NCBI GenBank assembly: GCA_030037065.1
Contig: JASHRW010000426.1
Location: 1 to 39,988, forward strand
Reading direction: 5' to 3'
DNA length: 39,988 nt
DNA from: Xanthobacteraceae bacterium
Lineage (GTDB): Bacteria > Pseudomonadota > Alphaproteobacteria > Rhizobiales > Xanthobacteraceae
In this document: positions 1,524 through 39,904 of the stretch, in pieces
Position numbering within the stretch: the first letter of the stretch is position 1
How the letters are laid out: each line of letters begins with the position of its first letter
The notes under the pieces: generated by a model
Databases searched by the model: none
What the model saw: the letters and a program-made list of their open reading frames with translations, nothing else
What the model was told of the DNA's origin: nothing
Made by a program: the position numbers and the translations under genes

Positions 1524-1561
1524 GCAGAGCCGCCCGGCGGTTTCGCGCCCGGCGGCTTTGC
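1524..1561 (-). terminator. Possible hairpin terminator downstream of the 1583-3709 gene
   Basis: gcagagccgcc (1524-1534) / ggcggctttgc (1551-1561), 11-bp stem with one wobble, just past the minus-strand stop; no strong T-run. Confidence 0.35.
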
Positions 1562-1582
1562 TCAGAGCAACGCGCAGTCCGC

Positions 1583-3709: not shown

Positions 3710-3889
3710 GCGAGCCTCCCTTCGAGATGCGACGCGCTGCCCTGGCGCACGCCGTCGTTTCCCGAAATGTGCCCGACGAACCGTCCCCGCTGCAAGGGAA
3801 AATCCACGGGCGGGAACCCGTCATGTGCGGACGGCGAGACGTGCGCTGGGATGGCCGGCCTCGGCGAGTTGGGATTTCGTCGATCAGGC

Positions 3890-14744: not shown

Positions 14745-15371
14745 ATGACCAAAATCCTTCTCACCCGCCACGGCCACGTCGAAGGCATAAAGCCCGAGCG
14801 CTTCCGCGGCCGCGAGCCGCTCGAGCTCACGGCGCGCGGCAGGCGCGAAGCCGCCGCCGTCGCCGATCGCATTGCCGGCGCCTGGCAGCCCGCCAAAATC
14901 TACACCAGCCCGATGGGACGCTGCGTCGCCACCGGCGCCGCTATCGCCAAAGCCTGCGGCATCACCGCCGAGATTTGCGACGATCTCAACGACATCGATT
15001 ACGGTGCCTGGCAATTCAAGACTTTCGATTTTGCCAAACGGGATGATCCATCGCTGCTCGCCGCCTGGTTCACGACCCCGCATCTCGTACGGTTTCCCAA
15101 CGGCGAATCGCTGCAGGATGTTGCGGCGCGCGGCGCCAATGCGCTGCGCTTCGTTCTGAGCCGGCATCGCGACGACACCGTCGTGCTCGTCGGTCACGAC
15201 AGCGTGAATCGCATTTTGCTGCTGCAATGTCTCGATCTGCCGCTGTCGGCCTATCGACGCATTGCGCAGAACCCGTGCTGCCTCAACGAGGTGGACATCG
15301 ACGGCGAAAAGATTTGTGTCGTGCGGATCAACGAAACGCATCACCTGGACGCGATAGCGGCGATTGAATGA
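14745..15371 (+). CDS. Histidine phosphatase family protein (phosphoglycerate-mutase-like)
   Basis: 208 aa; LLTRHGHVEGIKPERFRGREPLELTARGRREA and VLVGHDSVNRILL; ATGA overlap with next CDS. Confidence 0.9.
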   Translation: MTKILLTRHGHVEGIKPERFRGREPLELTARGRREAAAVADRIAGAWQPAKIYTSPMGRCVATGAAIAKACGITAEICDDLNDIDYGAWQFKTFDFAKRDDPSLLAAWFTTPHLVRFPNGESLQDVAARGANALRFVLSRHRDDTVVLVGHDSVNRILLLQCLDLPLSAYRRIAQNPCCLNEVDIDGEKICVVRINETHHLDAIAAIE

Positions 15372-17704
15372 AGGCGATGACCCGTTCGCAACAATCAATC
15401 GGCTTGGGCGCGATGACCTTCGTCGGTCGCTCGCTGCCGCGGCTCGAAGACCGGCCGCTTGTCACCGGCCGCGGTCTGTTCGCCGCCGACGTCAATTTCG
15501 CCCATCAATTGCATATGCGCGTCGTGCGTTCCGCGCACGCCCACGGCCGCATCGTCGCGATCGATGCCAGTGCGGCCCGCGCGGCGCCGGGCGTCGTCGC
15601 GGTATGGACGTCGGCCGACGTAACCACCGTTCCGCCGATCGATTTTCGCCTCACCCGCATCGAAGGGCTCGATCCCTATCGGCAGCCGATCCTGGCCACC
15701 GATTGCGTGCGCTACGTGGGCGAGCCGGTCGCTGTCGTGTTCGCGACCGATGCCTACCTCGCCGAGGATGCCGCCGATCTGGTGAATGTCGAGGTCGAGG
15801 AACTGCCGCCGCTACTCGCCGCCGACGCGCCGCCCGGCGTATTCGGCCAAAATCACTCAACCGAAGTCGCCCTCGTCCGCAAAGGCTTCGGCGACGTCGA
15901 AGGTGCGTTCGCTGCGGCGCACGCAATTGTCGCGCTCGAACTCGCGATCGGCCGCCACAGCGGCGTGCCAATGGAGACGCGCGGCGCCATTGCACGGCAG
16001 GCGCGCGGCATCATCGAACTGCATGGCGCCGCCAAGGTGGTGCACTGGAACAGGGACGCACTGGCTCGCATGCTTGGCCGGCCCGCCTCCTCGGTGCACC
16101 TGCACGAAGGCCATGTCGGCGGCGGCTTCGGCGTGCGCGGCGAGCTTTACCCGGAAGACGTTCTGGTCTGCCTCGGCGCGCTGCGGCTTGGCCGCCCGGT
16201 GAAATGGATCGAGGATCGGCGCGAGCATCTTCTCGCCACCAATCATTCGCGCCAGGCCCATTTCCGCATTCGCGCCGCGGTCGACGCCGATGGCCGCCTG
16301 CTCGCCATCGACGGCGAGTTCTTCCACGATCAAGGCGCCTATGTGCGCACCCATGCGGCGACCGTCCCCGATCTTGCCGCCGCAATGCTGCCGGGGCCGT
16401 ATCGACTCGCCGCCTATCGCATGGTGGGGCGCATCCGGCTCACCAACAAAACGCCGTGCGGCACCTATCGCGCGCCGGGACGCTACGAGAGCACGTTCGT
16501 GCGCGAGCGGCTGATGGACGCCATCGCGGCCAAACTGAAAACCAACCCGGTCGAAATCCGGCGCCGCAATCTGATCGCCAATACCGACATGCCGTACGCG
16601 CTCAATTTCGACACGCTCGGCACCGAACTCACCTACGATTCCGGCGATTACGCCAAGCTTCTCGACAAGGCGCTGGCCGCAATCGGCTGGCTTGCGATGC
16701 AGGAGGAACTGAGGCGCCGCCGCGCCGGCGGCGAAGCGGTCGGCGTAGGCCTCGCGATGTTCGTGGAAAAAAGCGGCCTCGGGCCGTTCGACGGCGTGCA
16801 CGTCTCGATCGACGATAGCGGTGCGGTGGAACTCGTGACCGGCTCGGCGTCGGTCGGCCAGGGCATGGAAACCGCGCTCGCGCAAATCTGCGCCGATGCG
16901 CTGGGCGTCGACTACGCACGCGTGCGCGTGGTGCACGGCCAGACCGACCGCATCGCCTTCGGCATGGGCGCCTTCGCTTCGCGGGTGACGGTGATGACCG
17001 GGGAAGCCACCCGCATCGCCGCGACAAAACTCCGCGCCAAAGCGATTACCGCTGCCGCAGCGCTGTTGCAGGCCGCGCCGGAAGCGCTCGATGTCATCGA
17101 TGGCCGGGTGGTGAGCAAAGGCGCCGCGCATGGCCCCTCGGTCAGTCTCGGCGACGTGGCGAAAGCGCTCGCTCCGGCTTCCAGGCTGCTCGGTGACGCA
17201 AATCCCGGACTGAGCGCGGAAGGCTGGGTCGAGCAGACCCACATGGCCTATCCGTACGGGGTCCACATCGCCGTGGTGCGCGTCGACCGCGACACTGGCG
17301 CTGTCACGGTCGAACGTTATCTGGTCGCCTACGATATCGGCAAGGCCGTCAACCCGATGCTGGTCGAGGGCCAGATTGCCGGCGGGACGGCACAGGGACT
17401 TGGCGGCGCGCTGTTCGAGGAATTTCTTTACGACCCGAGCGGCGAGCCGGTGAGCGTCACCTTCGCCGACTACCTCATGCCGACCGCACGCGAGGTTCCC
17501 CGAATCGAAACGCTCATTACCGAGGACGCGCCGAGTCCGCTCAATCCGCTCGGGCTCAAAGGTGCCGGCGAAGGCGGCGCCAATCCGGTTGGCGCCGTCA
17601 TCGCCTCGGCGATCGACGATGCGCTTGGCAAGCCGAGCGCGGTTTCCCGGCTGCCGGTTTCGCCCGCGCGATTGCGTGAAATGCTCGCGCACCAGCCCTC
17701 TTGA
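15368..17704 (+). CDS. Xanthine dehydrogenase/aldehyde oxidase family molybdopterin-binding large subunit
   Basis: 778 aa; LPRLEDRPLVTGRGLFAADVNFAHQLHMRVVRSAHAHGRI; HVGGGFGVRGELYPED; CGTYRAPGRYESTF; LGLKGAGEGGANPVGAVIASAIDDAL. Confidence 0.93.
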   Translation: MKAMTRSQQSIGLGAMTFVGRSLPRLEDRPLVTGRGLFAADVNFAHQLHMRVVRSAHAHGRIVAIDASAARAAPGVVAVWTSADVTTVPPIDFRLTRIEGLDPYRQPILATDCVRYVGEPVAVVFATDAYLAEDAADLVNVEVEELPPLLAADAPPGVFGQNHSTEVALVRKGFGDVEGAFAAAHAIVALELAIGRHSGVPMETRGAIARQARGIIELHGAAKVVHWNRDALARMLGRPASSVHLHEGHVGGGFGVRGELYPEDVLVCLGALRLGRPVKWIEDRREHLLATNHSRQAHFRIRAAVDADGRLLAIDGEFFHDQGAYVRTHAATVPDLAAAMLPGPYRLAAYRMVGRIRLTNKTPCGTYRAPGRYESTFVRERLMDAIAAKLKTNPVEIRRRNLIANTDMPYALNFDTLGTELTYDSGDYAKLLDKALAAIGWLAMQEELRRRRAGGEAVGVGLAMFVEKSGLGPFDGVHVSIDDSGAVELVTGSASVGQGMETALAQICADALGVDYARVRVVHGQTDRIAFGMGAFASRVTVMTGEATRIAATKLRAKAITAAAALLQAAPEALDVIDGRVVSKGAAHGPSVSLGDVAKALAPASRLLGDANPGLSAEGWVEQTHMAYPYGVHIAVVRVDRDTGAVTVERYLVAYDIGKAVNPMLVEGQIAGGTAQGLGGALFEEFLYDPSGEPVSVTFADYLMPTAREVPRIETLITEDAPSPLNPLGLKGAGEGGANPVGAVIASAIDDALGKPSAVSRLPVSPARLREMLAHQPS

Positions 17705-17812
17705 CGCCTTCTGCACCGCCGCAGGAATCGGGTAGGCCTTCAGGCGTTGCCGGACTATGTGTTTGGTACTGGAAGCGGAGAAGCCGACCGCACGCCGGCT
17801 GCAGAGAATTGA

Positions 17813-18523
17813 ATGCCGCCTGTTCAAGAGCGAATTGACACATATGATTGGAGCGCTATCGGCGCGGAGCTAAACGCCTATGGCTGCGCCATGCTGCAAA
17901 AATTGCTCAGCCCGCGCGATTGCAAGGAACTCGCCGCACTCTATCCGCACGAAGAGCCTTTCCGCAGCCGTGTCGTCATGGCGCGGCACGGCTTTGGCAA
18001 GGGCGAGTACAAATACTTCAAATATCCGCTGCCGGACTTGGTTGGCGCGCTGCGCTGCGCACTCTATCCGCATGCGGCCAAGATCGCCAACGCCTGGAAC
18101 GAACGAATGGACATCGACGCGTGCTATCCGAGCGCGCACACCGACTATCTGACAATTTGCCACAAGGCCGGGCAAACGCGGCCAACGCCGCTGTTGCTGC
18201 AATACGCGCCTGGCGATTTCAATTGCCTGCACCAAGATCTTTACGGCGAATTGGCCTTTCCACTACAGGCGACGGTGCTGCTCTCCGATCCGGCGCGCGA
18301 TTTCACCGGCGGCGAATTCGCACTCACCGAGCAACGTCCGCGCATGCAGAGCCGCGTCGAAGTGGTGCCGCTGGCCCAGGGTGACGCAGTGATTTTCGCG
18401 GTTCACAATCGTCCGGTGCAGGGAACGAAAGGCGCGTATCGCGTCAACCTGCGCCATGGCGTCAGCCGGTTGCGTTCCGGCCGCCGCCACACGCTCGGCA
18501 TCATTTTTCACGATGCGAAGTAA
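17813..18523 (+). CDS. 2OG-Fe(II) oxygenase (prolyl-hydroxylase-like)
   Basis: 236 aa; CLHQDLYGELAFPLQATVLLSDP (HxD) and GAYRVNLRHGVSRLRSGRRHTLGIIFHDAK C-terminal region. Confidence 0.82.
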   Translation: MPPVQERIDTYDWSAIGAELNAYGCAMLQKLLSPRDCKELAALYPHEEPFRSRVVMARHGFGKGEYKYFKYPLPDLVGALRCALYPHAAKIANAWNERMDIDACYPSAHTDYLTICHKAGQTRPTPLLLQYAPGDFNCLHQDLYGELAFPLQATVLLSDPARDFTGGEFALTEQRPRMQSRVEVVPLAQGDAVIFAVHNRPVQGTKGAYRVNLRHGVSRLRSGRRHTLGIIFHDAK

Positions 18524-18533
18524 GCGTGCGACC

Positions 18534-19394
18534 TCACCTCGGCGGCTTGTGTGCCAGCCAGCGGCCAGCCTCGGCGGCGGCGAACAAATCCGAGAGCGCG
18601 GCATTGAACGCAGCCGGCTCCTCGCTATTGATGTTGTGGCCGGAGCGCGGCACGACCAGTAACGCCGCACTGGGGACGACGCGCTTGAGAAACACGCTGC
18701 CTTCGAGGCAGGGATCGTCCTCGTCGCCGGCGATGATGAGCAGCGGCACCGCGTATTTCTTCAGGTCCGCCTGCATGTCCCAGAACGTCGGGCGCCTGGC
18801 TTGCACCATGGTCATGGTCAGCGCGTGGCCCTGCGCCGAATGCTCGGCGAGCATCTGCGCAAACTCGGCGTAGCCGCGCGGGTCCTTGTGCTTGTGCGCG
18901 TGGCGCATCGGCTGGTCGCCATAGATCGCCGCCGCCTCCGCCATGCCTTTCTCGGTGAACATCCGCGCGGTGTCGGCGGCGACCTTGCGCATATTCTCGC
19001 GCGCTGCCGGATCGGGCAACGAGCCCCAGCCGCAGCCGGCGGCGGTCACCGAGATGCAGCGTTGCGGATTTTTGATGCCGACGTGCAGCGCGGTGTAGGC
19101 GCCCATCGAATGACCTACCACGTGCGCGCGGTCGATGCCGAGCGCATCCATCAGCGCGATCACGTCGCTGCGCAAAATGTCTTGGCCGTAGCGCGCCGGA
19201 TCGCTCGGCACGTCGGAGGGTGGGTAGCCGCGCTGACTGTAGGTGACGCAGCGATGCAGCCGGGAGAAGTAGCGCATCTGCGGCTCCCAGGTGCGGTAAT
19301 CGCCGGCGTATTCATGGACGAACACCACCGGCGTGCCGCTGCCGGCTTCTTCATAATAAAGGCCGGTGCCGTCGGCTGTTTTGATCTTCAGCAT
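18534..19394 (-). CDS. Alpha/beta hydrolase
   Basis: 286 aa; GTPVVFVHEYAGDYRTWEPQM; HVVGHSMGAYTALHVG nucleophile elbow; C-terminal RSGHNINSEEP. Confidence 0.9.
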   Translation of the reverse strand: MLKIKTADGTGLYYEEAGSGTPVVFVHEYAGDYRTWEPQMRYFSRLHRCVTYSQRGYPPSDVPSDPARYGQDILRSDVIALMDALGIDRAHVVGHSMGAYTALHVGIKNPQRCISVTAAGCGWGSLPDPAARENMRKVAADTARMFTEKGMAEAAAIYGDQPMRHAHKHKDPRGYAEFAQMLAEHSAQGHALTMTMVQARRPTFWDMQADLKKYAVPLLIIAGDEDDPCLEGSVFLKRVVPSAALLVVPRSGHNINSEEPAAFNAALSDLFAAAEAGRWLAHKPPR

Positions 19395-19409
19395 GTTTCC
19401 CCTCCCCGA

Positions 19410-20261
19410 TCAGCGTCGCGTAATGGCGCGTGCCGCATCGCCGAGCGCTTCGACCGCCCCGTCGCCGGCGTCGAAGATCGCCAGAACGCGGCACGGGCAG
19501 GCCTCCAGACCTTCGTAGCGCCAAGGAAAGGCGCCGATGACGCAGCGCTTGCCGAGCACGCTTGGCAGATCGCCGCCCAGATTCTCGGCGTGGAGCAGTC
19601 CTTCTTGGAACGCGTAATTGTGGAACGGAAACACGTCGGTCCGCACTTTGCGGCCTGAGCGCTTATGCACGTATTCGAAGGTACCGAAATACTCGGCCGG
19701 CGGCTTGCCCATGACCTTCTCGAATTCGCGGGCGATGTCCGGCCGCATAGTGCGAATGGACGTGTTCATCGGGTGGTCGCAGGAGCCGGTGTCCATACCA
19801 AACCATTTGATCTTCTTTTTCAGCATCCATTCGAGCGTGGCGAAGGTCGGCCCCGGGTGATAGCAGAAATAGCGCACCAGATCCTGTTGGCGCTGTCCTT
19901 CGTAATATTTTTGCCAGCCGGTGTGCAGAATGAGAATGTCGCCTTCGCGGATATCGGCGCCGGTTCTTTCGATCATCTCCGGCGTGATGGCTGTCCAGTC
20001 CGTCACCTGCGGCTCAAGATCGACGACAACGCCGTGATTGATCAAATAGTCGAGCGGCAGCGAGGCCATGTCACCCGAGCGACCGTCAGTGGCGTGCATC
20101 GCGCCGTCAAAATGCGTGCCGGCATGTAGCGACGTTTCGATGCGCTGCGCCACGATGCCGACCGTCTGCAGGTTCTGCGCGTAATACATTTTGTTGCCGG
20201 CATATCCGACCCAACCGGGCGTGTGGATGCTCATCGTGTGAGAGAGGTCGACGATCTTCAT
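19410..20261 (-). CDS. Cyclase-family metal-dependent hydrolase (kynurenine formamidase/isatin hydrolase-like fold)
   Basis: 283 aa; ETSLHAGTHFDGAMHATDG motif; DLSHTMSIHTPGWVGY. Confidence 0.87.
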   Translation of the reverse strand: MKIVDLSHTMSIHTPGWVGYAGNKMYYAQNLQTVGIVAQRIETSLHAGTHFDGAMHATDGRSGDMASLPLDYLINHGVVVDLEPQVTDWTAITPEMIERTGADIREGDILILHTGWQKYYEGQRQQDLVRYFCYHPGPTFATLEWMLKKKIKWFGMDTGSCDHPMNTSIRTMRPDIAREFEKVMGKPPAEYFGTFEYVHKRSGRKVRTDVFPFHNYAFQEGLLHAENLGGDLPSVLGKRCVIGAFPWRYEGLEACPCRVLAIFDAGDGAVEALGDAARAITRR

Positions 20262-20273
20262 GCAAATATCCCG

Positions 20274-21356
20274 CTATGCCGGCTGCAGAGAGGGCGCGAG
20301 TGCGATCTCGCAGAGCTGTGTCACCGGCTCCGGCAGCTCGGCGCCGGTGACATCGTAGCCGATGGTGCGCAAAAGTCCGCGGGCCGGACACATGGCGGCG
20401 GCGAGTCGCGTATAGGGATTAAGCACCGGCGCGCGCACCCAGTCGAAGCCGCGATCGGCAAGCGAGCCACCCCAGCCAACCAGCGACTCGCGGCGGGCGC
20501 GGCTGAAGCCTGCGGCTTCGGCGAACGAAGACTTGAGGAAGCGGCGGGTGCCGATCCGCCCTTCCCAGCGCGGCCGCTCCGGCAGCCAATCGTTGGCGGC
20601 GCTGGTGTCGTCCTCACGGGTGACGAAGCCCGTCTCAGTCCGCTCGATCACGCAATTTTCATGGGCCGCGCAGCCGATCAGCGTGAAAATTGCCGGACGC
20701 GCGATCGGCATTGTCTCCAGCACGCGCCGCGCGGCGCCGTAATCGCCGCAGATTTCAAACGTGTGGCGCAGAAGCTGATCCGGTGGCATGCGATCCGTAC
20801 ACTTCCAGCCGGCGAGCATATTCACCGCGAAGTCGTAAGGACGCAGCCATGGATGCGCGGTCCGGCGCCGCATCGGCGCCTGGTTGATACAGGCGGCGAA
20901 GCGAAACGGCGCCATCGCGGTGAGCGTTCCCACATAGCCCGGCCAAGTAACGCTGAAGAAATCGCCGCCGACCCCGCGCATTCGCGCCACTGCGGCGTGA
21001 CGGCCGAGCCCGCGAAACGGCCAATCCAAGGTACGCACCAGCCACGGCGCGCCGTCATGTTCGCGCGCCAGCGAAGTGCAGGCCCATTGATACGAGGCGT
21101 TGAGCAGCCATACGCCGGAAAAGCCGAGGACATCGGCAATCTGCGCAATCTCCTGCACATAGGGCGAGCGCGACTGTTTCAGAAAGCGCCGCGCCGCTTT
21201 GTCGAACAGCGGCAGCGCCGGCATCAGCGAGGGCGGGAAAAAGCCGAGGCAGGCATCGCGCAACGCCCGCGCCTGCATGGCGCTTTGTTGCGCGTGAAGC
21301 GGCGGCCCGCCGTCGCGAATATCAATGACCGGAATTGCCGGCGCTGCGCCGTTCAT
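20274..21356 (-). CDS. Linear amide C-N hydrolase / acid ceramidase-NAAA-like Ntn hydrolase
   Basis: 360 aa; WACTSLAREHDGAPWLVRTLDWPFRGLGR resembles the autoprocessed Cys-Thr-Ser...R-x-L-D-W motif of the acid ceramidase/NAAA beta chain. Confidence 0.65.
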   Translation of the reverse strand: MNGAAPAIPVIDIRDGGPPLHAQQSAMQARALRDACLGFFPPSLMPALPLFDKAARRFLKQSRSPYVQEIAQIADVLGFSGVWLLNASYQWACTSLAREHDGAPWLVRTLDWPFRGLGRHAAVARMRGVGGDFFSVTWPGYVGTLTAMAPFRFAACINQAPMRRRTAHPWLRPYDFAVNMLAGWKCTDRMPPDQLLRHTFEICGDYGAARRVLETMPIARPAIFTLIGCAAHENCVIERTETGFVTREDDTSAANDWLPERPRWEGRIGTRRFLKSSFAEAAGFSRARRESLVGWGGSLADRGFDWVRAPVLNPYTRLAAAMCPARGLLRTIGYDVTGAELPEPVTQLCEIALAPSLQPA

Positions 21357-21544
21357 GAAGAAGCCGTGCTAGAATGCATTGCACGCCTCAATGTGGCTGC
21401 CTCAGTTCCAAGTCAAGCAAGTCATCAAGCAAAATTGTCGAATGGGGCTTGCGACCGCTTGCAATTGCCCGCCAAGGGAATGCAAAATCGCCTTGCAAGT
21501 TGGTTGCGGGGGGCGGTCTGCTGGCAATTCAAGGAGCGAAATAA

Positions 21545-21868
21545 ATGACGCACTTGAAGTCGGTCTTTGTCGCTGCGGCGATCGTCAGTGCCGCCATGAT
21601 CGGTGGCGCGTCGGCGATGCCGGCCACCAATCTCACCCCAACCGTTCAAACAGCACCCGGATTGCAATCCGGCCTGCAGCAGGTCCGCTGGGTCTGCCAC
21701 TATGGGTGCTGGCACCACCGGGGTCCCTGGTGGGGGCCGCGCATCTGGTGGCCGCGGATATGGTTGCCGCGTATCTGGTGGCGCCCTGGTCCTCCATGGT
21801 GGGGGCCGTGGGGCTGGCACCGTCATTATTATTGGCGGCATCATTACTGGCATCGCCGGTGGCGGTAG
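21545..21868 (+). CDS. Small secreted Trp/Arg/Pro/His-rich protein
   Basis: 107 aa; clear signal peptide VFVAAAIVSAAMIGGASAM; C-terminus GPWWGPRIWWPRIWLPRIWWRPGPPWWGPWGWHRHYYWRHHYWHRRWR; aaggagcgaaat upstream. Confidence 0.7.
   Translation: MTHLKSVFVAAAIVSAAMIGGASAMPATNLTPTVQTAPGLQSGLQQVRWVCHYGCWHHRGPWWGPRIWWPRIWLPRIWWRPGPPWWGPWGWHRHYYWRHHYWHRRWR
21737..21781 (+). repeat. 3 x 15-nt tandem repeat inside the Trp-rich CDS
   Basis: ccgcgcatctggtgg / ccgcggatatggttg / ccgcgtatctggtgg encoding PRIWW-PRIWL-PRIWW. Confidence 0.85.
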
Positions 21869-21901
21869 CCACAGCGACGCGGTGATAGGCGGCAAACCAG
21901 C

Positions 21902-22633
21902 CTACGCCACTTCCAGCAGCATCTCGGCAAGCCGCTCGGGCATGTCGATCATGACGTCGTGCCCGCACAGCACCCCGTAGGTCCGCCACGAGGGGTCGGC
22001 CTTCTTGGCGAGGTAGTACTTGTCGAAGGCCGGCTGCGGATATTGCGGCGCGCGGATGTAGATCTTTTTAGCCACGCGTTCGCGCGCGCCGGTGAGCTTG
22101 ATCGGCTGCAACTGCACGCCGACCGGGTGCGGCGTCAGTTTGGAGTCGACCCAGGCACGGTCCCTCTCGTTGACGCCGAATCTGGCAGCCGGTGGCGGGG
22201 GTTGAGAAATTTCGCCCTTGGCGACCGCCTCCATCGTGGCCTTGCGCGTAAAGTCGGAAGCGAGGTCGAGGCTTTTCTGGCCGTCCTCGGGCAAGAACGC
22301 ATCGATGAACACCGCTGCGGCAACCCGATCGAAGATTTGCTCGATCGCGCCGGATACCGGAAAGCCGGCATAAGAATGGGCGGCGAGCACGACGCCGCCG
22401 AGATCCTCCCACTTCACCAGATTCACGATATCCGCAATGTGGGTATCCAGGTTGATGTCACGGTGCAGGAGATGGGAGCGCTCGCCGAGCCCGGTCAGCG
22501 TCGGCGCAAAAACTCTGTGACCAGCTTTCTCCAAAAGATCGGCGACCCGGCGCCAGCACCAGCCACCATGCCATGCGCCGTGAACCAAAACGAAAGTCTT
22601 TCGCGCAGGAGTCGCCGCGCCGCCTGAAACCAT
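21902..22633 (-). CDS. Alpha/beta hydrolase (methylesterase/hydroxynitrile lyase-like)
   Basis: 243 aa; FVLVHGAWHGGWCWRRVADLLEKAGHRVFAPTLTGLGERSHLL; VVLAAHSYAGFPVSG; CGHDVMIDMPERLAEMLLEVA. Confidence 0.9.
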   Translation of the reverse strand: MVSGGAATPARKTFVLVHGAWHGGWCWRRVADLLEKAGHRVFAPTLTGLGERSHLLHRDINLDTHIADIVNLVKWEDLGGVVLAAHSYAGFPVSGAIEQIFDRVAAAVFIDAFLPEDGQKSLDLASDFTRKATMEAVAKGEISQPPPPAARFGVNERDRAWVDSKLTPHPVGVQLQPIKLTGARERVAKKIYIRAPQYPQPAFDKYYLAKKADPSWRTYGVLCGHDVMIDMPERLAEMLLEVA

Positions 22634-22654
22634 TGCCCAACCCCAGGTCTTATT

Positions 22655-23464
22655 TCAACGGTCGCGGATCTTGTCCATCAAGACCTTGTCCTGGCCGCCG
22701 TCGATCTCGATCATCGTGCCGTTGACGAAGAAAGCGAGATCGGAGGCGAGATAAGTGACCAGATTGGCAACCTCTTCACATTCGGCAATGCGGCCGAGAG
22801 GAATGCTCGACGGAGCCAGCTTGTCAGCTTCCTCGAAACTCAGATTCATATCGCGCGCCATCGCGTTGACGAGGCCGGTCCAGCGCTCGGTGCGCACCGG
22901 GCCGGGATTGACGGCGACAAAGCTGATATTGTCCTTACCGTACTGGCTCGCCAGCGACAGCGTCAGGTTTTGCCCGGCCGCATTGGCGGCGCCTGGCGCG
23001 ATCTCCCAGTAGGAGACTTTTACGCCGTCGTTGCCGATCAGGTTCACCACCCGGCCCTTCTTTTGCTTCTGCATGATCGGCAGAACGTGCTTCAAGCAGC
23101 GCACGTAGCCCATGAATTTGAGCTGCAGCGCGCCCGCCCAATCCTCCTCGCTCAGATGCTCGATGACCCCGCCAGGCGCCGATCCGGCATTATTGACGAG
23201 AATGTCGATCCGGCCCAAAGCGGCGTGCGCCTGCCGGATGAAATTCTCGGCGTCCGCCGGTTCGGTCAGGTCGGCAACGATGGGAACGATCTGACGATTG
23301 GTCGCCCGCGAAATCTCGGCGGCGGCCGCCTCAAGCGGCCCCTCGCGCCGCGCGCAGATGGCGACATCGACGCCTTCCTTGGCGAACGCCCAGGTAATCG
23401 CCTTGCCGATGCCCTCGCTGGCGCCGGTGACGGCCGCCTTCTTCCCGGTCATGCCCAAGTCCAT
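22655..23464 (-). CDS. SDR-family oxidoreductase
   Basis: Start MDLGMTGKKAAVTGASEGIGKAITWAFAKEG (TGxxxGIG) at 23464; ILVNNAGSAPGG (NNAG); 269 aa. Confidence 0.9.
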   Translation of the reverse strand: MDLGMTGKKAAVTGASEGIGKAITWAFAKEGVDVAICARREGPLEAAAAEISRATNRQIVPIVADLTEPADAENFIRQAHAALGRIDILVNNAGSAPGGVIEHLSEEDWAGALQLKFMGYVRCLKHVLPIMQKQKKGRVVNLIGNDGVKVSYWEIAPGAANAAGQNLTLSLASQYGKDNISFVAVNPGPVRTERWTGLVNAMARDMNLSFEEADKLAPSSIPLGRIAECEEVANLVTYLASDLAFFVNGTMIEIDGGQDKVLMDKIRDR

Positions 23465-23826
23465 CGCAATCCTCCCGACCCCATTCTTGACATTGCTTTT
23501 ATACCCGGCAAGCAAGCCAGAATGGCCGTGTGTGTCAACATCAGGCGCGGGTGGGATCTTAATGCTTACGATACCAAGCGCGCACCGGCGCGGCAGGAAG
23601 CGCCGCGCGCCCCGGTTGAGGCTATCAGAGCGGTGCCGAACCAAGGCTGTGTGGGGCACGCCAGCGCCAAACCATGGCGGCATGCGGACGATGCGGCGAA
23701 ACGGGCAAAAAAGTCAGCCACGCTCTATGGGAGAAAGCCCAAAAGTGTTTGGAGATCCTGCGCTGCCACAACTCGGTTGGGACGACCCATTGACGGCACG
23801 CCATCAAGATGGCCACGGCCATCCAT

Positions 23827-23862
23827 CATGCGTCAAAGAACTTTCATGCGTCCAAAAATTTT
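23827..23862 (-). repeat. 18-bp imperfect tandem duplication at the 3' end of the 23844-24641 CDS
   Basis: catgcgtcaaagaacttt / catgcgtccaaaaatttt, 15/18 matches. Confidence 0.8.
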
Positions 23863-24641
23863 CGCACCAACGGTTCGAGCACATCCAGCCGCTCGACCTG
23901 CGGAACGTGGCCGCAATCCTCGATGATTTCCACGCGTGCGCCGGGAATGCGGGCGGCGAATTCCTTGGCGTAAACCACCGAGATCAGCGCATCGTCCTCG
24001 CCCCAGACGATCAAGGTCGGCGCCTTGACCCGGTGCAGCCGCTTTTTCAGCCCCTTGTCGGGAATCGGCCAGACGAATTTTCCGGTGGCGCCGAGCGCCC
24101 AGACCAGATCGGCGGTGATCACCGCCACCTGTTTTGGATCGTCCGGCATTTTCAGCGCCGCCTGCACGGGCGGCGAGTCGAGATGCTTATATAAAGTCGC
24201 CACCAGCTTATCCGGCGGCATCAGCATATAGGGTGCGACCGGGGCGTCGTCACGCCACAGCCCGACCGGGTCGAGCAGCACCATCTTGCTGACGCGTTCG
24301 GGCCGATGCGCGGCGAACTCGCAGGCCATCATGCCGCCGAACGAGGTGCCGATCACCGGCACCGCACCGAGCCCGAGCGCATCGAAAAGCTCCTCGTAAA
24401 TCAGGAGGAGGTCCCACAAGCTTTCGACCGCGTAGATGGAGTCGCGCGCGGTTTCGCCGGTGCCAGGGTGGTGGGGCGCATAGACCGTGTAACGCCCGCA
24501 CAATCCCTCGACGAACGGGTCCCAGATCGGGCCACCCGCAGCGTGCAGATAGACGAGCGGCGGCCCGCTGCCGGCGGTTTTCACCTTGGCTTCGAAATTG
24601 CAGTGCTTGATCGAGATCGTCTTTATCGTGGAGGCAACCAT
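23844..24641 (-). CDS. Alpha/beta hydrolase
   Basis: 265 aa; GPPLVYLHAAGGPIWDPFVEGLCGRYTVYAPHHPGTGET; VIGTSFGGMMACEFA; DCGHVPQVERLDVLEPLVRKFLDA. Confidence 0.92.
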   Translation of the reverse strand: MVASTIKTISIKHCNFEAKVKTAGSGPPLVYLHAAGGPIWDPFVEGLCGRYTVYAPHHPGTGETARDSIYAVESLWDLLLIYEELFDALGLGAVPVIGTSFGGMMACEFAAHRPERVSKMVLLDPVGLWRDDAPVAPYMLMPPDKLVATLYKHLDSPPVQAALKMPDDPKQVAVITADLVWALGATGKFVWPIPDKGLKKRLHRVKAPTLIVWGEDDALISVVYAKEFAARIPGARVEIIEDCGHVPQVERLDVLEPLVRKFLDA

Positions 24642-24695
24642 GTTTCACATCCGCTGCTGCATTGAGGTGATCGCGGAACGCTCTGCGCAATCGCG

Positions 24696-25964
24696 TCAGG
24701 CCGTTGCCCTCTCGCGCTGTTGCGCTCCGCGCTTGCGCAGTGTCTTCGGCCACCAGTGATTTTCCCAATTCTGGTCTTCCCAGATTTTCTGCAAATGCGG
24801 GAGAACCTCGCGGCCGAACAGATCGATGTTCTTTTCCGCCTGGGCATGCGGCATGGAGCCGAACTGCAGCGCGACCATCAGGTGGCCGACATTGAGCCGC
24901 TTGGCCATGGCTTCGAGCTTGGCGCGAACCGTCGCCGGGCTGCCGACCACGACGAATTCCTTCTCGATCATGGCCTTCGCCTTCAGCGGTTTGAGATCGA
25001 CAGTGAAATCGCTGATTTGAATGAGGTCCTTACCGGAGAGAAAAATGTTCAACAGGCTCTTGTAGTCGGCGTTGCCTGGCGGAGAAATGTATCCGATCGG
25101 CAGATGCAGGAGCTTGTGATAGAAATATTCGACGTGCTTGCCGTATTCCTCTTCGGCCTTGCGGTCGGTTTCGGCAACGCCGACGATCTGGAGGAATGAC
25201 GCGCGATACGGATTGGCGTCCTTGCCCTTGGCCGCCGCGCGGGCCCAAAACCGGTCCATCACCTGTTCGGCCGATTTGCCGCCGAAATAGCTCAGATAGG
25301 CGTAGGGGAAATCCCGGTCATGGCAATAATCCCAGGTCGATGAACTGGCCGCGCCCGGGATCAAAACCGGCGGATGCGGCTCCTGCACCGGCCGCGGCCA
25401 CAGGTTCACTTTGGGCAACTGGTTGTACTTGCCGTTCCAGGCGAAGAATTCCTTGGCCGTCCATGCCTTGAGCATCAGGTCGACGCCCTCGCGCCAGCGC
25501 TCGCGATGCTCCATCGGCGTGATGCCGTTGCTGATCGACACGTCATTGCCCAGTCCAGTCGGCAGGCCGGCGATCAGCCGGCCGCCGCTGAGGCAATCGA
25601 GCACGGCATATTCCTCGGCAAGTCGAATGGGCGGACACGACGAAATGGTGGCGCCGAGCTGGACCAGCGCGACATGATCGAGGCCCTGGTCGCGCGTCAT
25701 CCTGGCCAGGGTGGCGCCGAACAAATTTGGATTGCACATGAAGCCGTAAGGATTCTGATGGTGTTCGTTGAGGCCGACGCCGTCAAAGCCGAGCTTTGCC
25801 GCCAGCATCAGTTCATCGATCGACCAGTTGTAATAATCGGTCACTTTGCTGGCGTCACCGTATTGCCACCACGGTGTATCGACCCATGCCGAGGCCAATC
25901 CCTTGGGGGGAAAGTCCGCGGGCAAATCGCGGTAGGGCATGAAATGAAACATCGTGACCTTCAT
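24696..25964 (-). CDS. LLM-class (luciferase-like) flavin-dependent oxidoreductase
   Basis: 422 aa; MKVTMFHFMPYRDLPADF; KLGFDGVGLNEHHQNPYGFMCNPNLFGATLARMT; RLAEEYAVLDCLSGGRLIAGLPTG. Confidence 0.92.
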   Translation of the reverse strand: MKVTMFHFMPYRDLPADFPPKGLASAWVDTPWWQYGDASKVTDYYNWSIDELMLAAKLGFDGVGLNEHHQNPYGFMCNPNLFGATLARMTRDQGLDHVALVQLGATISSCPPIRLAEEYAVLDCLSGGRLIAGLPTGLGNDVSISNGITPMEHRERWREGVDLMLKAWTAKEFFAWNGKYNQLPKVNLWPRPVQEPHPPVLIPGAASSSTWDYCHDRDFPYAYLSYFGGKSAEQVMDRFWARAAAKGKDANPYRASFLQIVGVAETDRKAEEEYGKHVEYFYHKLLHLPIGYISPPGNADYKSLLNIFLSGKDLIQISDFTVDLKPLKAKAMIEKEFVVVGSPATVRAKLEAMAKRLNVGHLMVALQFGSMPHAQAEKNIDLFGREVLPHLQKIWEDQNWENHWWPKTLRKRGAQQRERATA

Positions 25965-27383: not shown

Positions 27384-27398
27384 GTTCGCTTTGCGAAC
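27384..27398. promoter_or_regulatory. Candidate IclR-family operator (GTTCG-N5-CGAAC)
   Basis: gttcgctttgcgaac, perfect 6-bp arms, in the divergent region between the ADH operon and ABC importer 1; same pattern as sites at 33982 and 34929. Confidence 0.5.
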
Positions 27399-32347: not shown

Positions 32348-33967
32348 CTATTTGGATAACGCCGGCCGTCCGCTGCGCAAGACGTGATAGCTCAGTTCGC
32401 CCGGGTCGGTGAGATCGGGGACCTTCCAACCTTCGAGATCGTATTCGGCCATGCACTCCTCGGCGAAGCCCTTGAACTTCGCAGCGTTGCCGGAGGCTTG
32501 CGCGCCGAACAGGCAATAGCGGCGAATTTCCTCGGTCGAGCCGCCATAATTGATTTCATAAAGCTCGTGCCGCCCGCCGAATTCGCTGGCGAGGCAGTCC
32601 CACAGTAGTTTGAGAAGTTTCACGCGCTCTTCAGCCTTGTAGCCGTTGGAGCCGCGCAGATAGCGGTCGAGATAGGGCCTGATCTCCGCGCTTTTGAAAT
32701 CACGCGCGTGGCTGTTGAGATAGATGAGCCCCGACGCCACGGTCTGCTCGATCAGATATTTCACGCGCGTATAGGCCATGGTCGCGATGATCTGGTACGC
32801 ATTGCCGGGATCCATGTTCGGCAGTAAGTACTCGCCGATCCATGGTTTCGGATCGCGCACCATCGCATCGGAAAGGCCCCAGAATAGATTACGCCAAGCG
32901 ATCACCTCGCCGACGTTGGCTTGCACGCCGCGATAGTCTTTGGTGCCGGACGCTTCGGTCGCCTTCAAGAGCAGGCCGGAGATGAAGTCGAGCTTGACCG
33001 CAAGGCGCGTGCAGCCGTGCACCACAAAGCGCGGCAGGAAGCCCGTTCGCGGGAAGAAATTGTTGGCCTTATCGATGTCGCCGTAAACGAACACGTTCTC
33101 CCAGGGCACCAGCACCTTGTCGAGAATGAAGACCGCGTCGTTCTCGTCCAGCCGGCTCGATATCGGATAGTCGAACGGGCTGCCCATGGCCGTCGATGTC
33201 ATTTCGTACGAAGCGCGACAGATGAATTTGACGCCCGGCGCATTGGTCGGGATCATGAATACCACGGCGAATTTTTTGTCTTGGACGGGAATGAGTCCGT
33301 GATGAGCGACGAAGGTGAAATTGGTCAACACCGATCCGGTGGCGACTACCTTCGCGCCCGACACGATGATGCCGGCGTCGGTTTCCTTCTCGACGTGACA
33401 GCACACGTCGCTGACTTCATTCGGCGGACGGTCCCGGTCGACCGGCGGATGGATGATGGCGTGGTTGATGAAGGGCACGCGCTCTTGAGAGTATTTATAC
33501 CAGCGCTTCGCGTTGTCCTGGTACGGATCGTAGAAGTCGGCATTGGCGCCGAGCGTGGCGAGAAATGCCGCCTTGTAGTCGGGCGAACGGCCGAGCCAGC
33601 CGTAGGTGATCTTCGCCCATTCGGCAATCGCGTCGCGGCCGGCAACGAGTTCTTTCAGAGTCTTGGGCGCTTTGAAGAAGGCGTGCGTCACGCCACCGTT
33701 GCCGGTCTCGGTCGGCAACAGGAGCTTGTGCTTGCGTTTGTCATCGTGCAGTGCGTCGTAAAGCCGGGCGACCATGCGCGCGGTATTGCGGAACGCCGGA
33801 TGCGTGGTGACGTCTTTGACGCGTTCGCCGTAGATGAACACCGTGCGATCGTCGCGCAGCGACTCCAGATACTCCTTGCCGTTCTGCGGCCGGTCGACTT
33901 TGGCTTTGCCGATATGCTCGGGCTGCAGCTTGCTTGCGGCATTACGCTGCACCTGCACTTTCGCCAT
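32348..33967 (-). CDS. HpaB-family (4-hydroxyphenylacetate 3-hydroxylase-type) FADH2-dependent monooxygenase oxygenase component
   Basis: 539 aa; [99 protein letters not shown]. Confidence 0.9.
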
Positions 33968-33981
33968 GGCGTTCCTCCCGC

Positions 33982-34015
33982 GTTCGGATACCGAACAAGT
34001 GTCCGTATTCCGAAC
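33982..34015. promoter_or_regulatory. Paired IclR-type operator candidate upstream of the hpaB-like gene
   Basis: gttcggataccgaac (33982-33996) and gtccgtattccgaac (34001-34015), offset exactly 19 bp; 15-48 bp upstream of the ATG at 33967. Confidence 0.6.
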
Positions 34016-34069
34016 TCAACGATAGAAGCGCGGCCTTCGCGTGGCAAGAGGCGATACCTTCAGCGTCAC

Positions 34070-34864: not shown

Positions 34865-34909
34865 TGGCGCGCCGGGCGTTGACTCCGCATCGGCTTTTGT
34901 CGGACACTG

Positions 34910-34943
34910 TTTCGAATAACGAACGAACGTTCGATTATCGAAC
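34910..34943. promoter_or_regulatory. Paired IclR-type operator candidate between iclR and importer 2
   Basis: tttcgaataacgaac (34910-34924) and gttcgattatcgaac (34929-34943, perfect 7-bp arms), offset exactly 19 bp. Confidence 0.65.
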
Positions 34944-35058
34944 AAAAGGCGCACCCGTCAAGCGCCGCGCGGCATCAACGACCGCATGGCGTTGGTTCGG
35001 CGCCATCGATCTCGGGCGTCCGATACTGCGTTGGCATTTTTGGAGGGAGGACGCGCCA

Positions 35059-36381
35059 ATGAAAAGCCGCAAGCCAGACCGCGACATCAACCGCCGCACA
35101 CTTCTTAAATACACCGCCGCCGGCGGCGCCGTTGCGGCCGCAGGAATTCATGCGCCGGCGATCGCGCAACAGCGAGCAGTGAAGATCGGCTATGTCAGTC
35201 CGCAGACCGGACCGCTGGCCGCCTTCGCTGACGCCGACAACTTCATTATCGACAATTTCAAAGAGGCCACTAAGGGGCAAATCAAACTCGGCAGCGCCAC
35301 CGTCCCCGTCGAGGTGATCGTCAAAGACAGTCAATCGAATCCGAACCGCGCCGCCGAAGTCGCCAAAGATCTTATCGTTCAGGACAATGTCGATCTGATG
35401 CTGGTCGCTTCGACGCCGGAGACGACCAACCCGGTCTCGACGCAATGCGAAATCCAAGAAGTGCCGTGTATTTCGTCAGTGGCGCCGTGGCAGTCATGGT
35501 TCATCGGCCGGCAAGCCAATCCGGGTGGTGGTCCCCCGGCGTGGAAGCCGTTCAATTACACTTACCATTTCTTCTGGGGGCTTGAGGACGTAATCGCCGT
35601 CTACACAAACATGTGGGGCCAAGTGCAGACCAACAAATCGGTAGGCGCGCTGTTCCCCAATGACGGCGATGGCAATGCCTGGGGCGATAAGGTCGTCGGC
35701 TTTCCGCCGGTGCTCGCCAAGCTCGGCTATAAGCTCACCGACCCCGGCCGCTACCAGGATCTCACCGATGATTTTTCCGCGCAGATTTCAGCGTTCAAAT
35801 CGGCAAACTGCGAGATCATCACGGGCGTCGTCATCCCGCCCGATTTCACCACTTTCTGGAAACAGTCCCTGCAGCAGGGCTTCAAGCCGAAAGTGGCGAC
35901 TATCGGCAAGGCGATATTGTTCCCGAGCGCGCTGGAGGCGTTGGGTCCTGACGGCAACAATCTGGGATCCGAGGTGTGGTGGACGCCGAGCCATCCGTTC
36001 AAATCCTCGCTCACCGGCGCAACGGCGAAATCGCTTGCCGATGCTTATGAGAGCGCAACCAAGAAGCAATGGACGCAGCCGATCGGTTTCGTGCACGCCT
36101 TGTTCGAACTAGCCGTCGACGTGATGAAGCGCACACCGAAGCGCGGCGATCCGAAGGCGATCGTTGCGGCCATCGCCGCGACCAATCTCGACACCATCGT
36201 CGGGCATCTACAGTGGAACGGCGCCAACCTGCCGCCGTTTGCCCATAAGAACATCGCCAAGACACCGCTGGTTGGTGGCCAGTGGCGGCTCAAGCCCGGC
36301 AACAAATACGAGATCGTCATCACTGAAAACAAAACCTTCCCGGCGATCCCACTTGGCGGCAAAATGGAGCCAATCACCTGA
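35059..36381 (+). CDS. Liv-type ABC transporter substrate-binding protein (importer 2)
   Basis: ATG at 35059 preceded by ggagggagg; Tat-like NRRTLLKYTAAGGAVAAAGIHAPAIAQ; VKIGYVSPQTGPLAAFADADNFI; clear paralogue of the 27524 protein. Confidence 0.92.
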   Translation: MKSRKPDRDINRRTLLKYTAAGGAVAAAGIHAPAIAQQRAVKIGYVSPQTGPLAAFADADNFIIDNFKEATKGQIKLGSATVPVEVIVKDSQSNPNRAAEVAKDLIVQDNVDLMLVASTPETTNPVSTQCEIQEVPCISSVAPWQSWFIGRQANPGGGPPAWKPFNYTYHFFWGLEDVIAVYTNMWGQVQTNKSVGALFPNDGDGNAWGDKVVGFPPVLAKLGYKLTDPGRYQDLTDDFSAQISAFKSANCEIITGVVIPPDFTTFWKQSLQQGFKPKVATIGKAILFPSALEALGPDGNNLGSEVWWTPSHPFKSSLTGATAKSLADAYESATKKQWTQPIGFVHALFELAVDVMKRTPKRGDPKAIVAAIAATNLDTIVGHLQWNGANLPPFAHKNIAKTPLVGGQWRLKPGNKYEIVITENKTFPAIPLGGKMEPIT

Positions 36382-36517: not shown

Positions 36518-37237
36518 GTGTCGCTCCTGGAAATTCGCGGCTTGCGGAAATGCTTCGGTTCGGTGGTCGCGGCGGACGACATTACTTTCGCCGTGGAGCC
36601 GGGCGAGGCGCTTGGCATTATCGGACCGAATGGCGCTGGCAAGACAACGCTGTTCAATCTGATCGCCGGCGGCCTGTTTCCTGATTCCGGCACCATCCAT
36701 CTCGATGGCCGCGACATCACGACGGCGCGGCCCCACGAGCGCTGCATCGCTGGCGTCGCCCGGTCCTACCAGATACCGCGGCCGTTCGAGACGCTTACCG
36801 TGTTCGAAAATCTGCTGGTGGCGGCGGTCTACGGCCGGCGTAAGAGCGAAGCCGATGCGGCGCAGGCCTGCGGCGAAATTCTCGACCAGGTTGGCTTGAT
36901 GCGGCGCGCCAACGTGCTCGCCGGCTCGCTGACCTTGCTCGAACGCAAGCGTTTGGAGATGGCGCGCGCGCTCGCGACCTCGCCGCGCCTCCTGCTGCTT
37001 GATGAGATCGCCGGCGGGCTCACCGAAAGCGAGTGCGGCGCGCTTGTCGACACCATCAAAGCACTCCATGACAGCGGCGTTACGATCGTCTGGATCGAGC
37101 ACATCGTCCATGCGTTGACGGCCGCGGTCGGAAGATTGATCGTACTCAATTTCGGCAGGAAGATCGCCGAGGGCAACCCGGATGCGGTCATGAGTTCTGC
37201 GGACGTGAGGCATATTTACATCGGCATCGAGGCGTGA
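36518..37237 (+). CDS. ABC transporter ATP-binding protein (LivG-like, importer 2)
   Basis: GTG start; GIIGPNGAGKTTLFNLIAGG; RLLLLDEIAGGLTESE. Confidence 0.92.
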   Translation: MSLLEIRGLRKCFGSVVAADDITFAVEPGEALGIIGPNGAGKTTLFNLIAGGLFPDSGTIHLDGRDITTARPHERCIAGVARSYQIPRPFETLTVFENLLVAAVYGRRKSEADAAQACGEILDQVGLMRRANVLAGSLTLLERKRLEMARALATSPRLLLLDEIAGGLTESECGALVDTIKALHDSGVTIVWIEHIVHALTAAVGRLIVLNFGRKIAEGNPDAVMSSADVRHIYIGIEA

Positions 37238-37244
37238 GGCCGGC

Positions 37245-37946
37245 ATGGCGCTATTGGAGACGCGCAGGCTCACGGCCTTCTACGGTGACTTTCAAGCGCT
37301 CTACGGCATCGACACGGTTCTCCAACTCGGCGAGACAGTCGCGATCATCGGCGCCAACGGCGCCGGCAAATCGACTTATCTCAAATCGATCGCCGGGCTG
37401 ATCCGCGGACCGGCCGAATCGGTCTGGTTCGACGGCCAGCCGATCGGCGCCCGCCAAGCGGCCGACGTGATGAAGCGCGGCATTACGCTGGTGCCGGAAG
37501 GCCGCCGGCTATTCCCTTCCCTCACGGTCGAGGAGAATCTCTTGATCGGCCGTTATGGGCGCAACGTGCCGGGACCCTGGTCGCTGGACGCAATCTACAC
37601 GCTGTTTCCGGCGCTCAAGGCGCGCCGCAACAGCGCCAGCACGACGCTGTCCGGCGGCGAGCAGCAGATGGTGGCGATCGGCCGGGCGCTCGTCTCAAAC
37701 CCGCGCGTGCTGCTATGCGACGAGATCAGTCTCGGGCTTGCGCCGATCGTCATCCGCGACCTGTACAACGCCCTGACGCAAATCAAGGCAGCGGGAACGA
37801 GTGTCATTGTGGTCGAGCAGGACATCGTGCAGGCGCTGCGGGTGTCGGATCGCATCTACTGCTTCCAGGAAGGCCGCTGCTCGCTGTCCGGCCGCCCGAC
37901 CGACCTGTCGCGTGAACAGATCCACCTCGCCTATTTCGGCACCTGA
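37245..37946 (+). CDS. ABC transporter ATP-binding protein (LivF-like, importer 2)
   Basis: AIIGANGAGKSTYLKSIAG; TLSGGEQQMVAIGRALVSNPRVLLCDEISLGLAPI. Confidence 0.93.
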   Translation: MALLETRRLTAFYGDFQALYGIDTVLQLGETVAIIGANGAGKSTYLKSIAGLIRGPAESVWFDGQPIGARQAADVMKRGITLVPEGRRLFPSLTVEENLLIGRYGRNVPGPWSLDAIYTLFPALKARRNSASTTLSGGEQQMVAIGRALVSNPRVLLCDEISLGLAPIVIRDLYNALTQIKAAGTSVIVVEQDIVQALRVSDRIYCFQEGRCSLSGRPTDLSREQIHLAYFGT

Positions 37947-37947
37947 T

Positions 37948-38817
37948 ATGACGCTGTGGGCCAATGCGCTGATGGAAGGCGTCCTGCTCGGTGGACTCTA
38001 TGCACTGTTTGCCGCCGGTCTATCGCTGATTTTCGGCATCATGCGGCTGGTCAACCTGGCGCATGGCGATCTGATCATTCTCGCAGCGTTCGTCGTCCTC
38101 AGCGTTGCCGCGTGGCTCAATATTGATCCGTTTGCCGCCACGCTCGCGGCCCTGCCCATCATGTTCCTGGCCGGCTTTGCCCTGCAATACTGCATTCTGA
38201 ACCGCACCCTCGGCCGCGGCCTCTTGCCGCCGCTGCTGGTGACCTTCGGCCTGTCGATCATCATCGAAAACGGCTTGCTCGAACTCTATTCGGCGGACAG
38301 CCGCCGCTTGCACGGCGGTTCGATCGAAACGTCCTCGATCGCACTCGGCCATAGCATCGGCATCGGCGTGGTCCCGCTGCTGACCCTTGCCTCTGCGATC
38401 GTCGTCATCCTGGCGCTCAATTTCATTTTTTATCGCACCGCGCTCGGCCGCGCCTTTCGCGCCACCGCCGACGATCTCGAAATCTCCCAGCTCATGGGTA
38501 TCGATCATCCGCGCATCTTCTCGATCGCCATGGGTCTCGCTTTCGTCGTCATCACGATTGCGGCGCTGTATCTCGGCATGCGGGCCAATTTTGATCCGAC
38601 CATAGGACCGGAACGCCTGCTCTATGCGTTCGAAGCGGTCATTATCGGCGGCTTGGGCAGCTTCTGGGGCACGCTGGTGGGCGGCATCATCATCGGCGTC
38701 GCCCAGACGGTCGGTGCCCAGATCGATCCGGAGTGGCAGATTCTCGCCGGCCATGTCGCCTTCCTGGCCGTTCTCGTATTTCGCCCCCGCGGCCTCTTTC
38801 CGCTCCCTGTCGACTAG
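37948..38817 (+). CDS. Branched-chain amino acid-type ABC permease (LivH-like, importer 2)
   Basis: Start MTLWANALMEGVLLGGLYALFAAGLSLIFGIMRLVNLAHGDLIIL at 37948. Confidence 0.93.
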   Translation: MTLWANALMEGVLLGGLYALFAAGLSLIFGIMRLVNLAHGDLIILAAFVVLSVAAWLNIDPFAATLAALPIMFLAGFALQYCILNRTLGRGLLPPLLVTFGLSIIIENGLLELYSADSRRLHGGSIETSSIALGHSIGIGVVPLLTLASAIVVILALNFIFYRTALGRAFRATADDLEISQLMGIDHPRIFSIAMGLAFVVITIAALYLGMRANFDPTIGPERLLYAFEAVIIGGLGSFWGTLVGGIIIGVAQTVGAQIDPEWQILAGHVAFLAVLVFRPRGLFPLPVD

Positions 38818-38827
38818 GGACGCGCCA

Positions 38828-39904
38828 ATGGCAAAGCACAGCAAATCCTTGGCCGGCACCGGACAATACCGCATCGTAACCGGAACGCCGGTCTCGCTGG
38901 TGGCGGCAGGGGGCACACTCATCTTGGTCGCCGTGCTGACCGCACTGCCCTTTTTCGCCGGACGCGACCTCCTCGAAAACATGATCTTTGTTTTCTACAT
39001 GCTGGCGCTGGCACAATGCTGGAATTTGCTGGCGGGCTACGCCGGGCTGGTTTCGGTCGGTCAGCAGGCCTTTGTCGGTCTGGGCGGCTACCTCTTGTTC
39101 GCCCTGACGATCATCGCCGGCATTGATCCGCTTGTCGCCATTCTTCTTGCCGGGGCAATTTCCGCGCTGTTTGCGCTGCCGACGGCGCTCATCGTGTTCA
39201 GGCTGCGCGGCGCCTATTTCGCCATCGGCACCTGGGTGGTCGCCGAAGTCTATCGCCTGTCGTTTGCCCAATTTCGGCAATTGGGCGGCGGCACGGGAAC
39301 ATCGCTCGGTCCCGATATCACCAACGCGGTTTTTGGCATTGACTGGGTCAAATCGCTGCTTGACGTACGGACGCCCGCCGCGCGCGATGTCATCTCGTAC
39401 TGGGCGGCACTGGCGCTTGCGGTCGGGACCCTCCTGCTTGTCTATCTCATTCTTCGCTCGCGCCGCGGGTTGGCGCTCGGTGCCATCCGCGATTCGGAGG
39501 AGGCGGCGGCGAGCGTCGGGGTGAACAACGCACGGGTCAAACTGGTCGTCTATATCATCGTCGCTGCCGTCACCGGCATGATCGGTGCGCTGATTTACCT
39601 GCAGAAGGCGCGCATTTCCCCCGACGCGGCGTTCTCGGTGCTGGATTGGACCGCCTATGTCATCTTTATCGTCGTCATCGGCGGCATCGGCACGATCGAG
39701 GGCCCGATTCTCGGCACGCTGATTTTCTATCTGCTGCAGAACTATCTCGCGAGCTACGGTCCCGTATACCTGATCCTTCTGGGCGCGCTCGCCATTCTGG
39801 TCATGTTGTTCGCTCCCAAGGGGCTGTGGGGTTACGTCTCGCAACGCTATGGGGTTGAGTTGTTGCCGATCCGGCGCCGCCTGGTCTGGAAGAAGGACCC
39901 ATAA
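38828..39904 (+). CDS. Branched-chain amino acid-type ABC permease (LivM-like, importer 2)
   Basis: Start MAKHSKSLAGTGQYR at 38828; NLLAGYAGLVSVGQQAFVGLGGYLLFAL; IGGIGTIEGPILGTLIFYLLQNYL. Confidence 0.92.
   Translation: MAKHSKSLAGTGQYRIVTGTPVSLVAAGGTLILVAVLTALPFFAGRDLLENMIFVFYMLALAQCWNLLAGYAGLVSVGQQAFVGLGGYLLFALTIIAGIDPLVAILLAGAISALFALPTALIVFRLRGAYFAIGTWVVAEVYRLSFAQFRQLGGGTGTSLGPDITNAVFGIDWVKSLLDVRTPAARDVISYWAALALAVGTLLLVYLILRSRRGLALGAIRDSEEAAASVGVNNARVKLVVYIIVAAVTGMIGALIYLQKARISPDAAFSVLDWTAYVIFIVVIGGIGTIEGPILGTLIFYLLQNYLASYGPVYLILLGALAILVMLFAPKGLWGYVSQRYGVELLPIRRRLVWKKDP

Follow-up and report, generated by a model that had tools for sequence, protein, structure and literature searches.

The window analysed here is a stretch of 39,988 nt from a Xanthobacteraceae bacterium (contig JASHRW010000426.1). 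Near its end, a gene for an IclR-family regulator lies between an hpaB-like oxygenase gene, read in the same direction, and the divergent operon of an importer (importer 2). The features considered are collected in Table 1. At 15368-25964 the window also carries a cluster with genes for a molybdenum hydroxylase large subunit, a luciferase-like monooxygenase, a cyclase, a short-chain dehydrogenase and three alpha/beta hydrolases. The cluster may encode a pathway that breaks down aromatic or heterocyclic compounds supplied by the importers.

Table 1 Features of the window that enter the analysis. All promoters are predictions.
Feature	Position	Strand	Basis or remark
hpaB-like flavin-dependent phenol monooxygenase, oxygenase component	32348-33967	-	Pfam HpaB_N and HpaB; TIGR02310
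hpaB-side operator	33982-34015	.	perfect palindrome 33982-33996 and one-mismatch copy 34001-34015
Predicted hpaB promoter, TTGCCA-N17-TATCGT	34019-34047	-	consensus scan; ends 3 bp before hpaB operator
iclR, PcaR/PcaU/PobR subfamily, 264 aa	34070-34864	-	NCBIfam TIGR02431; presumed operator owner
Predicted importer-2 promoter, TTGACT (34879-34884) and -10 GACACT (34903-34908)	34879-34908	+	abuts operator
Operator copy 1, TTTCGAATAACGAAC	34910-34924	.	exact sequence and coordinates checked
Operator copy 2, perfect palindrome GTTCGATTATCGAAC	34929-34943	.	GTTCG-N5-CGAAC in 31/31 orthologs
Predicted iclR promoter, TTGACG-N16-GATAAT	34934-34961	-	consensus scan; -10 within perfect palindrome
Importer-2 substrate-binding gene, first in divergent operon	35059-36381	+	Peripla_BP_6, Tat signal, synteny
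Importer-2 operon remainder, two ATPases and two permeases, branched-chain-amino-acid (Liv) type	36518-39904	+	
Lone palindrome before importer 1, GTTCGCTTTGCGAAC	27384-27398	.	without third box; doubtful regulon member

The IclR protein contains the Pfam domains IclR_C and HTH_IclR and scores 292.3 bits against the TIGR02431 profile, whose cut-off is 284.75, which places it in the PcaR/PcaU/PobR subfamily. It matches the PcaR structure 8eju (E=2.9e-54) and retains the R-A-A-x-R-R of the PcaR helix (IPRAAVRR in 8eju, LSRAAARR here), where the recognition-helix arginines R52, R56 and R57 align with 8eju and are invariant in ten orthologs. With regard to the beta-ketoadipate pathway, the targets in the window are the hpaB-like gene and the importer, with no pca genes among them. 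For the HpaB-like protein, the TIGR02310 score of 684 bits lies under the equivalog cut-off of 885, and its substrate is therefore not assured and its pathway not fixed.

The operator between iclR and importer 2 comprises two 15-mers that the sequence-only reading had described as lying 19 bp apart. Their sequences and coordinates proved exact, and the two copies on the hpaB side are offset by the same 19 bp, as had been proposed. The distances to the flanking genes also hold, the operator being separated by 45 nt from the iclR ATG (34864) and by 115 nt from the ATG of the importer-2 substrate-binding gene (35059). However, the further inverted repeat that had been singled out in the gap, GAACGTTC, is incidental, as it arises from the spacer GAAC and is not conserved; the inner inverted repeat that orthologs do conserve is CGAAC-N4-GTTCG. 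Here, the right half-site of copy 1, CGAAC (34920-34924), serves as what we refer to as the third box, which is conserved, and the left half-site of the same copy is the variable fourth box.

When considering how rare such sites are, it should be noted that the 40-kb window holds six single GTTCG-N5-CGAAC sites with at most one mismatch, where 2.6 are expected, so that single palindromes in one window are weak evidence and undecisive alone. Exact palindromes number 12 in the 4.39-Mb genome, as compared to 7 for a reversed-pattern control. Three of these fall inside the window, and the others do not rise above background. The four-box form is a different matter. With no more than 3 of the 20 fixed bases allowed to be wrong, the iclR-side and hpaB-side operators were its sole matches in the 4.39 Mb, and the reversed control gave none. 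Two copies of the exact three-box form, GTTCG-N5-CGAAC-N4-GTTCG, are present in the genome, one in the iclR operator and one beside a second PcaR-like regulator (contig C225, plus strand), the TIGR02431 score of which is just below the cut-off. This second site, GTTCGTAGACCGAACATATGTTCG (positions 2052-2075 of C225), lies between the regulator and a Rieske/LigXa-like oxygenase gene starting at 2043 on the minus strand, and the same 24 bases are found beside a homologous regulator in another genome (G014, contig C66).

A lack of preservation of the palindromes at orthologous loci had been named beforehand as one of the findings that would refute the proposal, and it was not borne out. We compared 31 loci with 64-92% protein identity to the IclR of the window; these are not independent, as many are from Bradyrhizobium and nine share contigs with another locus set, although several genera are spanned. 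A perfect palindrome lies upstream of iclR in all 31, at 70-185 bp 5' of the aligned start; the loci were recovered through perfect arms, yet every ortholog possessed one. On the iclR strand, GTTCG follows at exactly +19 in 29 of the 31, and at no other offset between 14 and 29. On the hpaB side, a perfect palindrome stands between iclR and hpaB in 26 of 27 orthologous loci with hpaB (the exception being L090) and in none of the four without hpaB. A neighbouring half-site, CG(G/C)AC, accompanies it in 26/26, and the conserved unit there thus also consists of three boxes, oriented to hpaB as the iclR-side operator is to importer 2. Accordingly, the PcaU-type arrangement, in which a palindrome is joined at fixed spacing by a half-site outside it, is seen in 29/31 cases on the iclR side and in 26/26 on the hpaB side.

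An anchored comparison of ten loci leads to the same unit. The three boxes are invariant and the flanks are near random or unalignable, while the fourth box retains only one invariant G. Of the two equal palindromes that had been proposed, the pair thus exists in the window, but the core that is conserved is one palindrome with one extra half-site, the fourth box being subject to decay. The gene order of substrate-binding gene, iclR and hpaB is likewise kept across Xanthobacteraceae and Bradyrhizobium, in both related genomes and named Bradyrhizobium genomes. For another 21 matches (L094-L114), whose identity does not exceed 42%, no perfect palindrome was found in the region scanned. This sets no rule for the wider family, as GTTCG-type tandem sites are present in other distant relatives (L017 and L029). 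Taken as a whole, the operator is real, functional-looking and strikingly conserved in soil alphaproteobacteria, and it is very probably the binding site of the regulator.

Three single loci deserve mention. In L088, which has no divergent importer gene, the palindrome stays, but both the third box and the -35 element of the importer are gone. This might mean that the third box acts on the importer side, although no clean rule follows, as L090 also lacks a divergent gene and yet retains that box. L063 (JASHOJ010000061.1), at 92% protein identity to the window, presents the same locus but is filed under a Candidatus Binataceae MAG; all other close relatives of the locus are Hyphomicrobiales, and the contig is probably mis-binned or the product of recent transfer. 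In L089, a Bauldia MAG, the iclR ortholog is divergent from pobA-like and pcaB-like genes (3165-3974 and 1541-3064, both on the minus strand), neighbours that would connect the regulator of the window with the breakdown of hydroxybenzoate. The pobA-like frame aligns with its profile at the two ends only, by deletion, as a pseudogene or through an assembly fault.

A search for additional members of the regulon in 12 genomes yielded remaining three-box matches that were scattered and near control level. The lone palindrome before importer 1 is retained in one close relative (L044) and missing from two (L046 and L047), and it is doubtful as a third member.

A consensus promoter scan of the region gave three promoter-like sites, as compared to 0.2 expected. 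For iclR, the predicted -35 element is retained in most orthologs. For importer 2, the -10 sequence GACACT is a poor match to the consensus in the window, and some orthologs come closer to it, as L013 does with GATAAT. A TTGAC element directed toward the divergent gene, whose distance from the operator hardly varies, is found in all 29 loci with such a gene and is missing in both loci without one (L088 and L090). The hpaB -10 sequence, TATCGT, recurs in seven of the eight loci compared (TATTGT in L012) and in the ortholog consensus. If these predictions hold, the importer-2 and iclR promoters are placed face to face, with both start sites inside the operator.

Combined, these observations suggest that the operator belongs to the adjacent IclR, a reading to which we assign a probability of roughly 0.85. 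The protein would repress importer 2, hpaB and itself until released by a ligand, with three boxes essential and the fourth auxiliary. The half-sites begin at 0, 10, 19 and 29 bp, which spaces them by roughly one helical turn and would put all four on much the same side of the helix, with room for two dimers or a tetramer, as has been described for IclR proteins with tandem sites of 18-22 nt (PMC8222616). Uninduced IclR would cover the start sites of the rightward importer-2 promoter and of its own leftward promoter, thus repressing both, and the operator just past the hpaB -10 element would place the oxygenase under the same control. Repression would then be lifted by the ligand, probably the imported hydroxy-aromatic acid or one of its products, as suggested by the HpaB-type oxygenase and by the pobA-like and pcaB-like genes of L089. 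Autoregulation with divergent control, as put forward in the sequence-only reading, remains the best account, given an operator upstream of iclR at every ortholog locus and a TTGAC element that comes and goes with the divergent gene. What we observe are the sites, their geometry and conservation, their co-occurrence with the genes and the subfamily of the regulator; the binding by IclR, the essential boxes, the promoter use, the repression and the ligand are inferred.

The sign of the control is less certain than the identity of the operator. The predicted position of the operator relative to the promoters favours autorepression and repression lifted by ligand, and we consider repression to be the better supported mode, though by no means secure. 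With the same protein and operator, ligand-bound IclR might instead activate importer 2 and hpaB and repress only itself. PcaU and PobR of Acinetobacter are described as activators in work on the family, and P. putida-type PcaR represses or activates by site position (PMC12455658), a change of role that leaves room for activation in the present case as well. However, both operators are downstream of the predicted -10 elements of importer 2 and hpaB, where a bound protein would normally obstruct polymerase, and activation therefore appears to be a minority possibility, albeit one to be taken seriously. Somewhat more tentative still is a reading in which three half-sites over face-to-face promoters act as a switch. 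Dimers would pair in alternative ways, on boxes 1+2 or on boxes 2+3, and the fourth box would tune the outcome. If true, a single regulator could adjust its own expression independently of that of the importer, and the operator would offer a natural test case for alternative dimerization, which has been proposed for IclR proteins and is so far unvalidated.

The sites could also be bound mainly by another IclR-family protein, such as the C225 paralog, which falls just short of the subfamily cut-off. As this paralog has its own exact three-box site, cross-binding is possible. Yet the operators accompany the window-type iclR gene in the 31 ortholog loci, and the C225 site differs in its centre (TAGAC, as opposed to A/T-rich here) and adjoins its own regulator and the Rieske oxygenase; we thus regard the paralog as an improbable main owner. 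A still weaker case can be made for RNA hairpins acting as leaders or attenuators. Each palindrome could fold into a stem of 5 bp and a loop of 5 nt in 5' leaders, but the arms are invariant in the 31 orthologs, which were recovered through perfect arms, and therefore present no compensatory change, the second hairpin is broken in several orthologs while its inner half-site persists, the 19-bp spacing is fixed, and the three-box unit serves both strands. Taken together, this makes a role in RNA very improbable. Finally, the modest excess of single sites in the window might recall chance repeats in a GC-rich intergenic region, yet the four-box pairs are unique in the genome and preservation of the operator across genera refutes chance, leaving it a negligible probability.

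The assembly of importer, iclR and hpaB should thus be seen as a well-conserved aromatic module of Bradyrhizobium and Xanthobacteraceae with an assignable operator, unnamed in the literature examined. A literature search for the Bradyrhizobium hpaB-iclR locus found nothing specific, and the main text of PMC8222616 names neither a Bradyrhizobium nor a 4-hydroxyphenylacetate case. An assignable operator makes the regulator and its ligand testable in culturable Bradyrhizobium strains, and, as the fourth box is lost by degrees from species to species, the loci form a natural series in which to ask how many half-sites an IclR operator requires.

In PMC8222616, PcaU sites are given as TTTGTTCGATWATCGMACAMA with a required extra direct half-site, and the PcaU and PobR operators of Acinetobacter baylyi use the box found here (GTTCGATWATCGMAC for PcaU) and follow the same plan of a palindrome plus an external half-site. 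The present operator departs from these in that some species have a partial fourth box with which a second palindrome is complete, in having a Liv-type importer and an HpaB-type oxygenase as its targets, and in its predicted position, which speaks for repression. As to P. putida, the PcaR site GTTCGATAATCGCAC is one base apart from GTTCGATAATCGAAC on the minus strand of the window, although it is described as a single box of ~15 bp in the pca promoter and serves other target genes (PMC12455658). Tandem IclR sites with 18-22 nt between centres are reported for 94 ortholog groups (Suvorova and Gelfand 2021, PMC8222616), and the 19 nt from centre to centre found here lies in this preferred range. 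The same source describes the TtgV operator complex (PDB 2XRO), in which an IclR-family protein sits on DNA as a tetramer and which may serve as a model for two dimers per operator, although the match of TtgV to our IclR is distant (E = 9.2e-11). With a regulator of the PcaR/PcaU/PobR subfamily, near-identical published sites and tandems of 18-22 nt, this kind of operator has therefore already been described. Its motif and geometry are known, while the species and the target genes are the new part.
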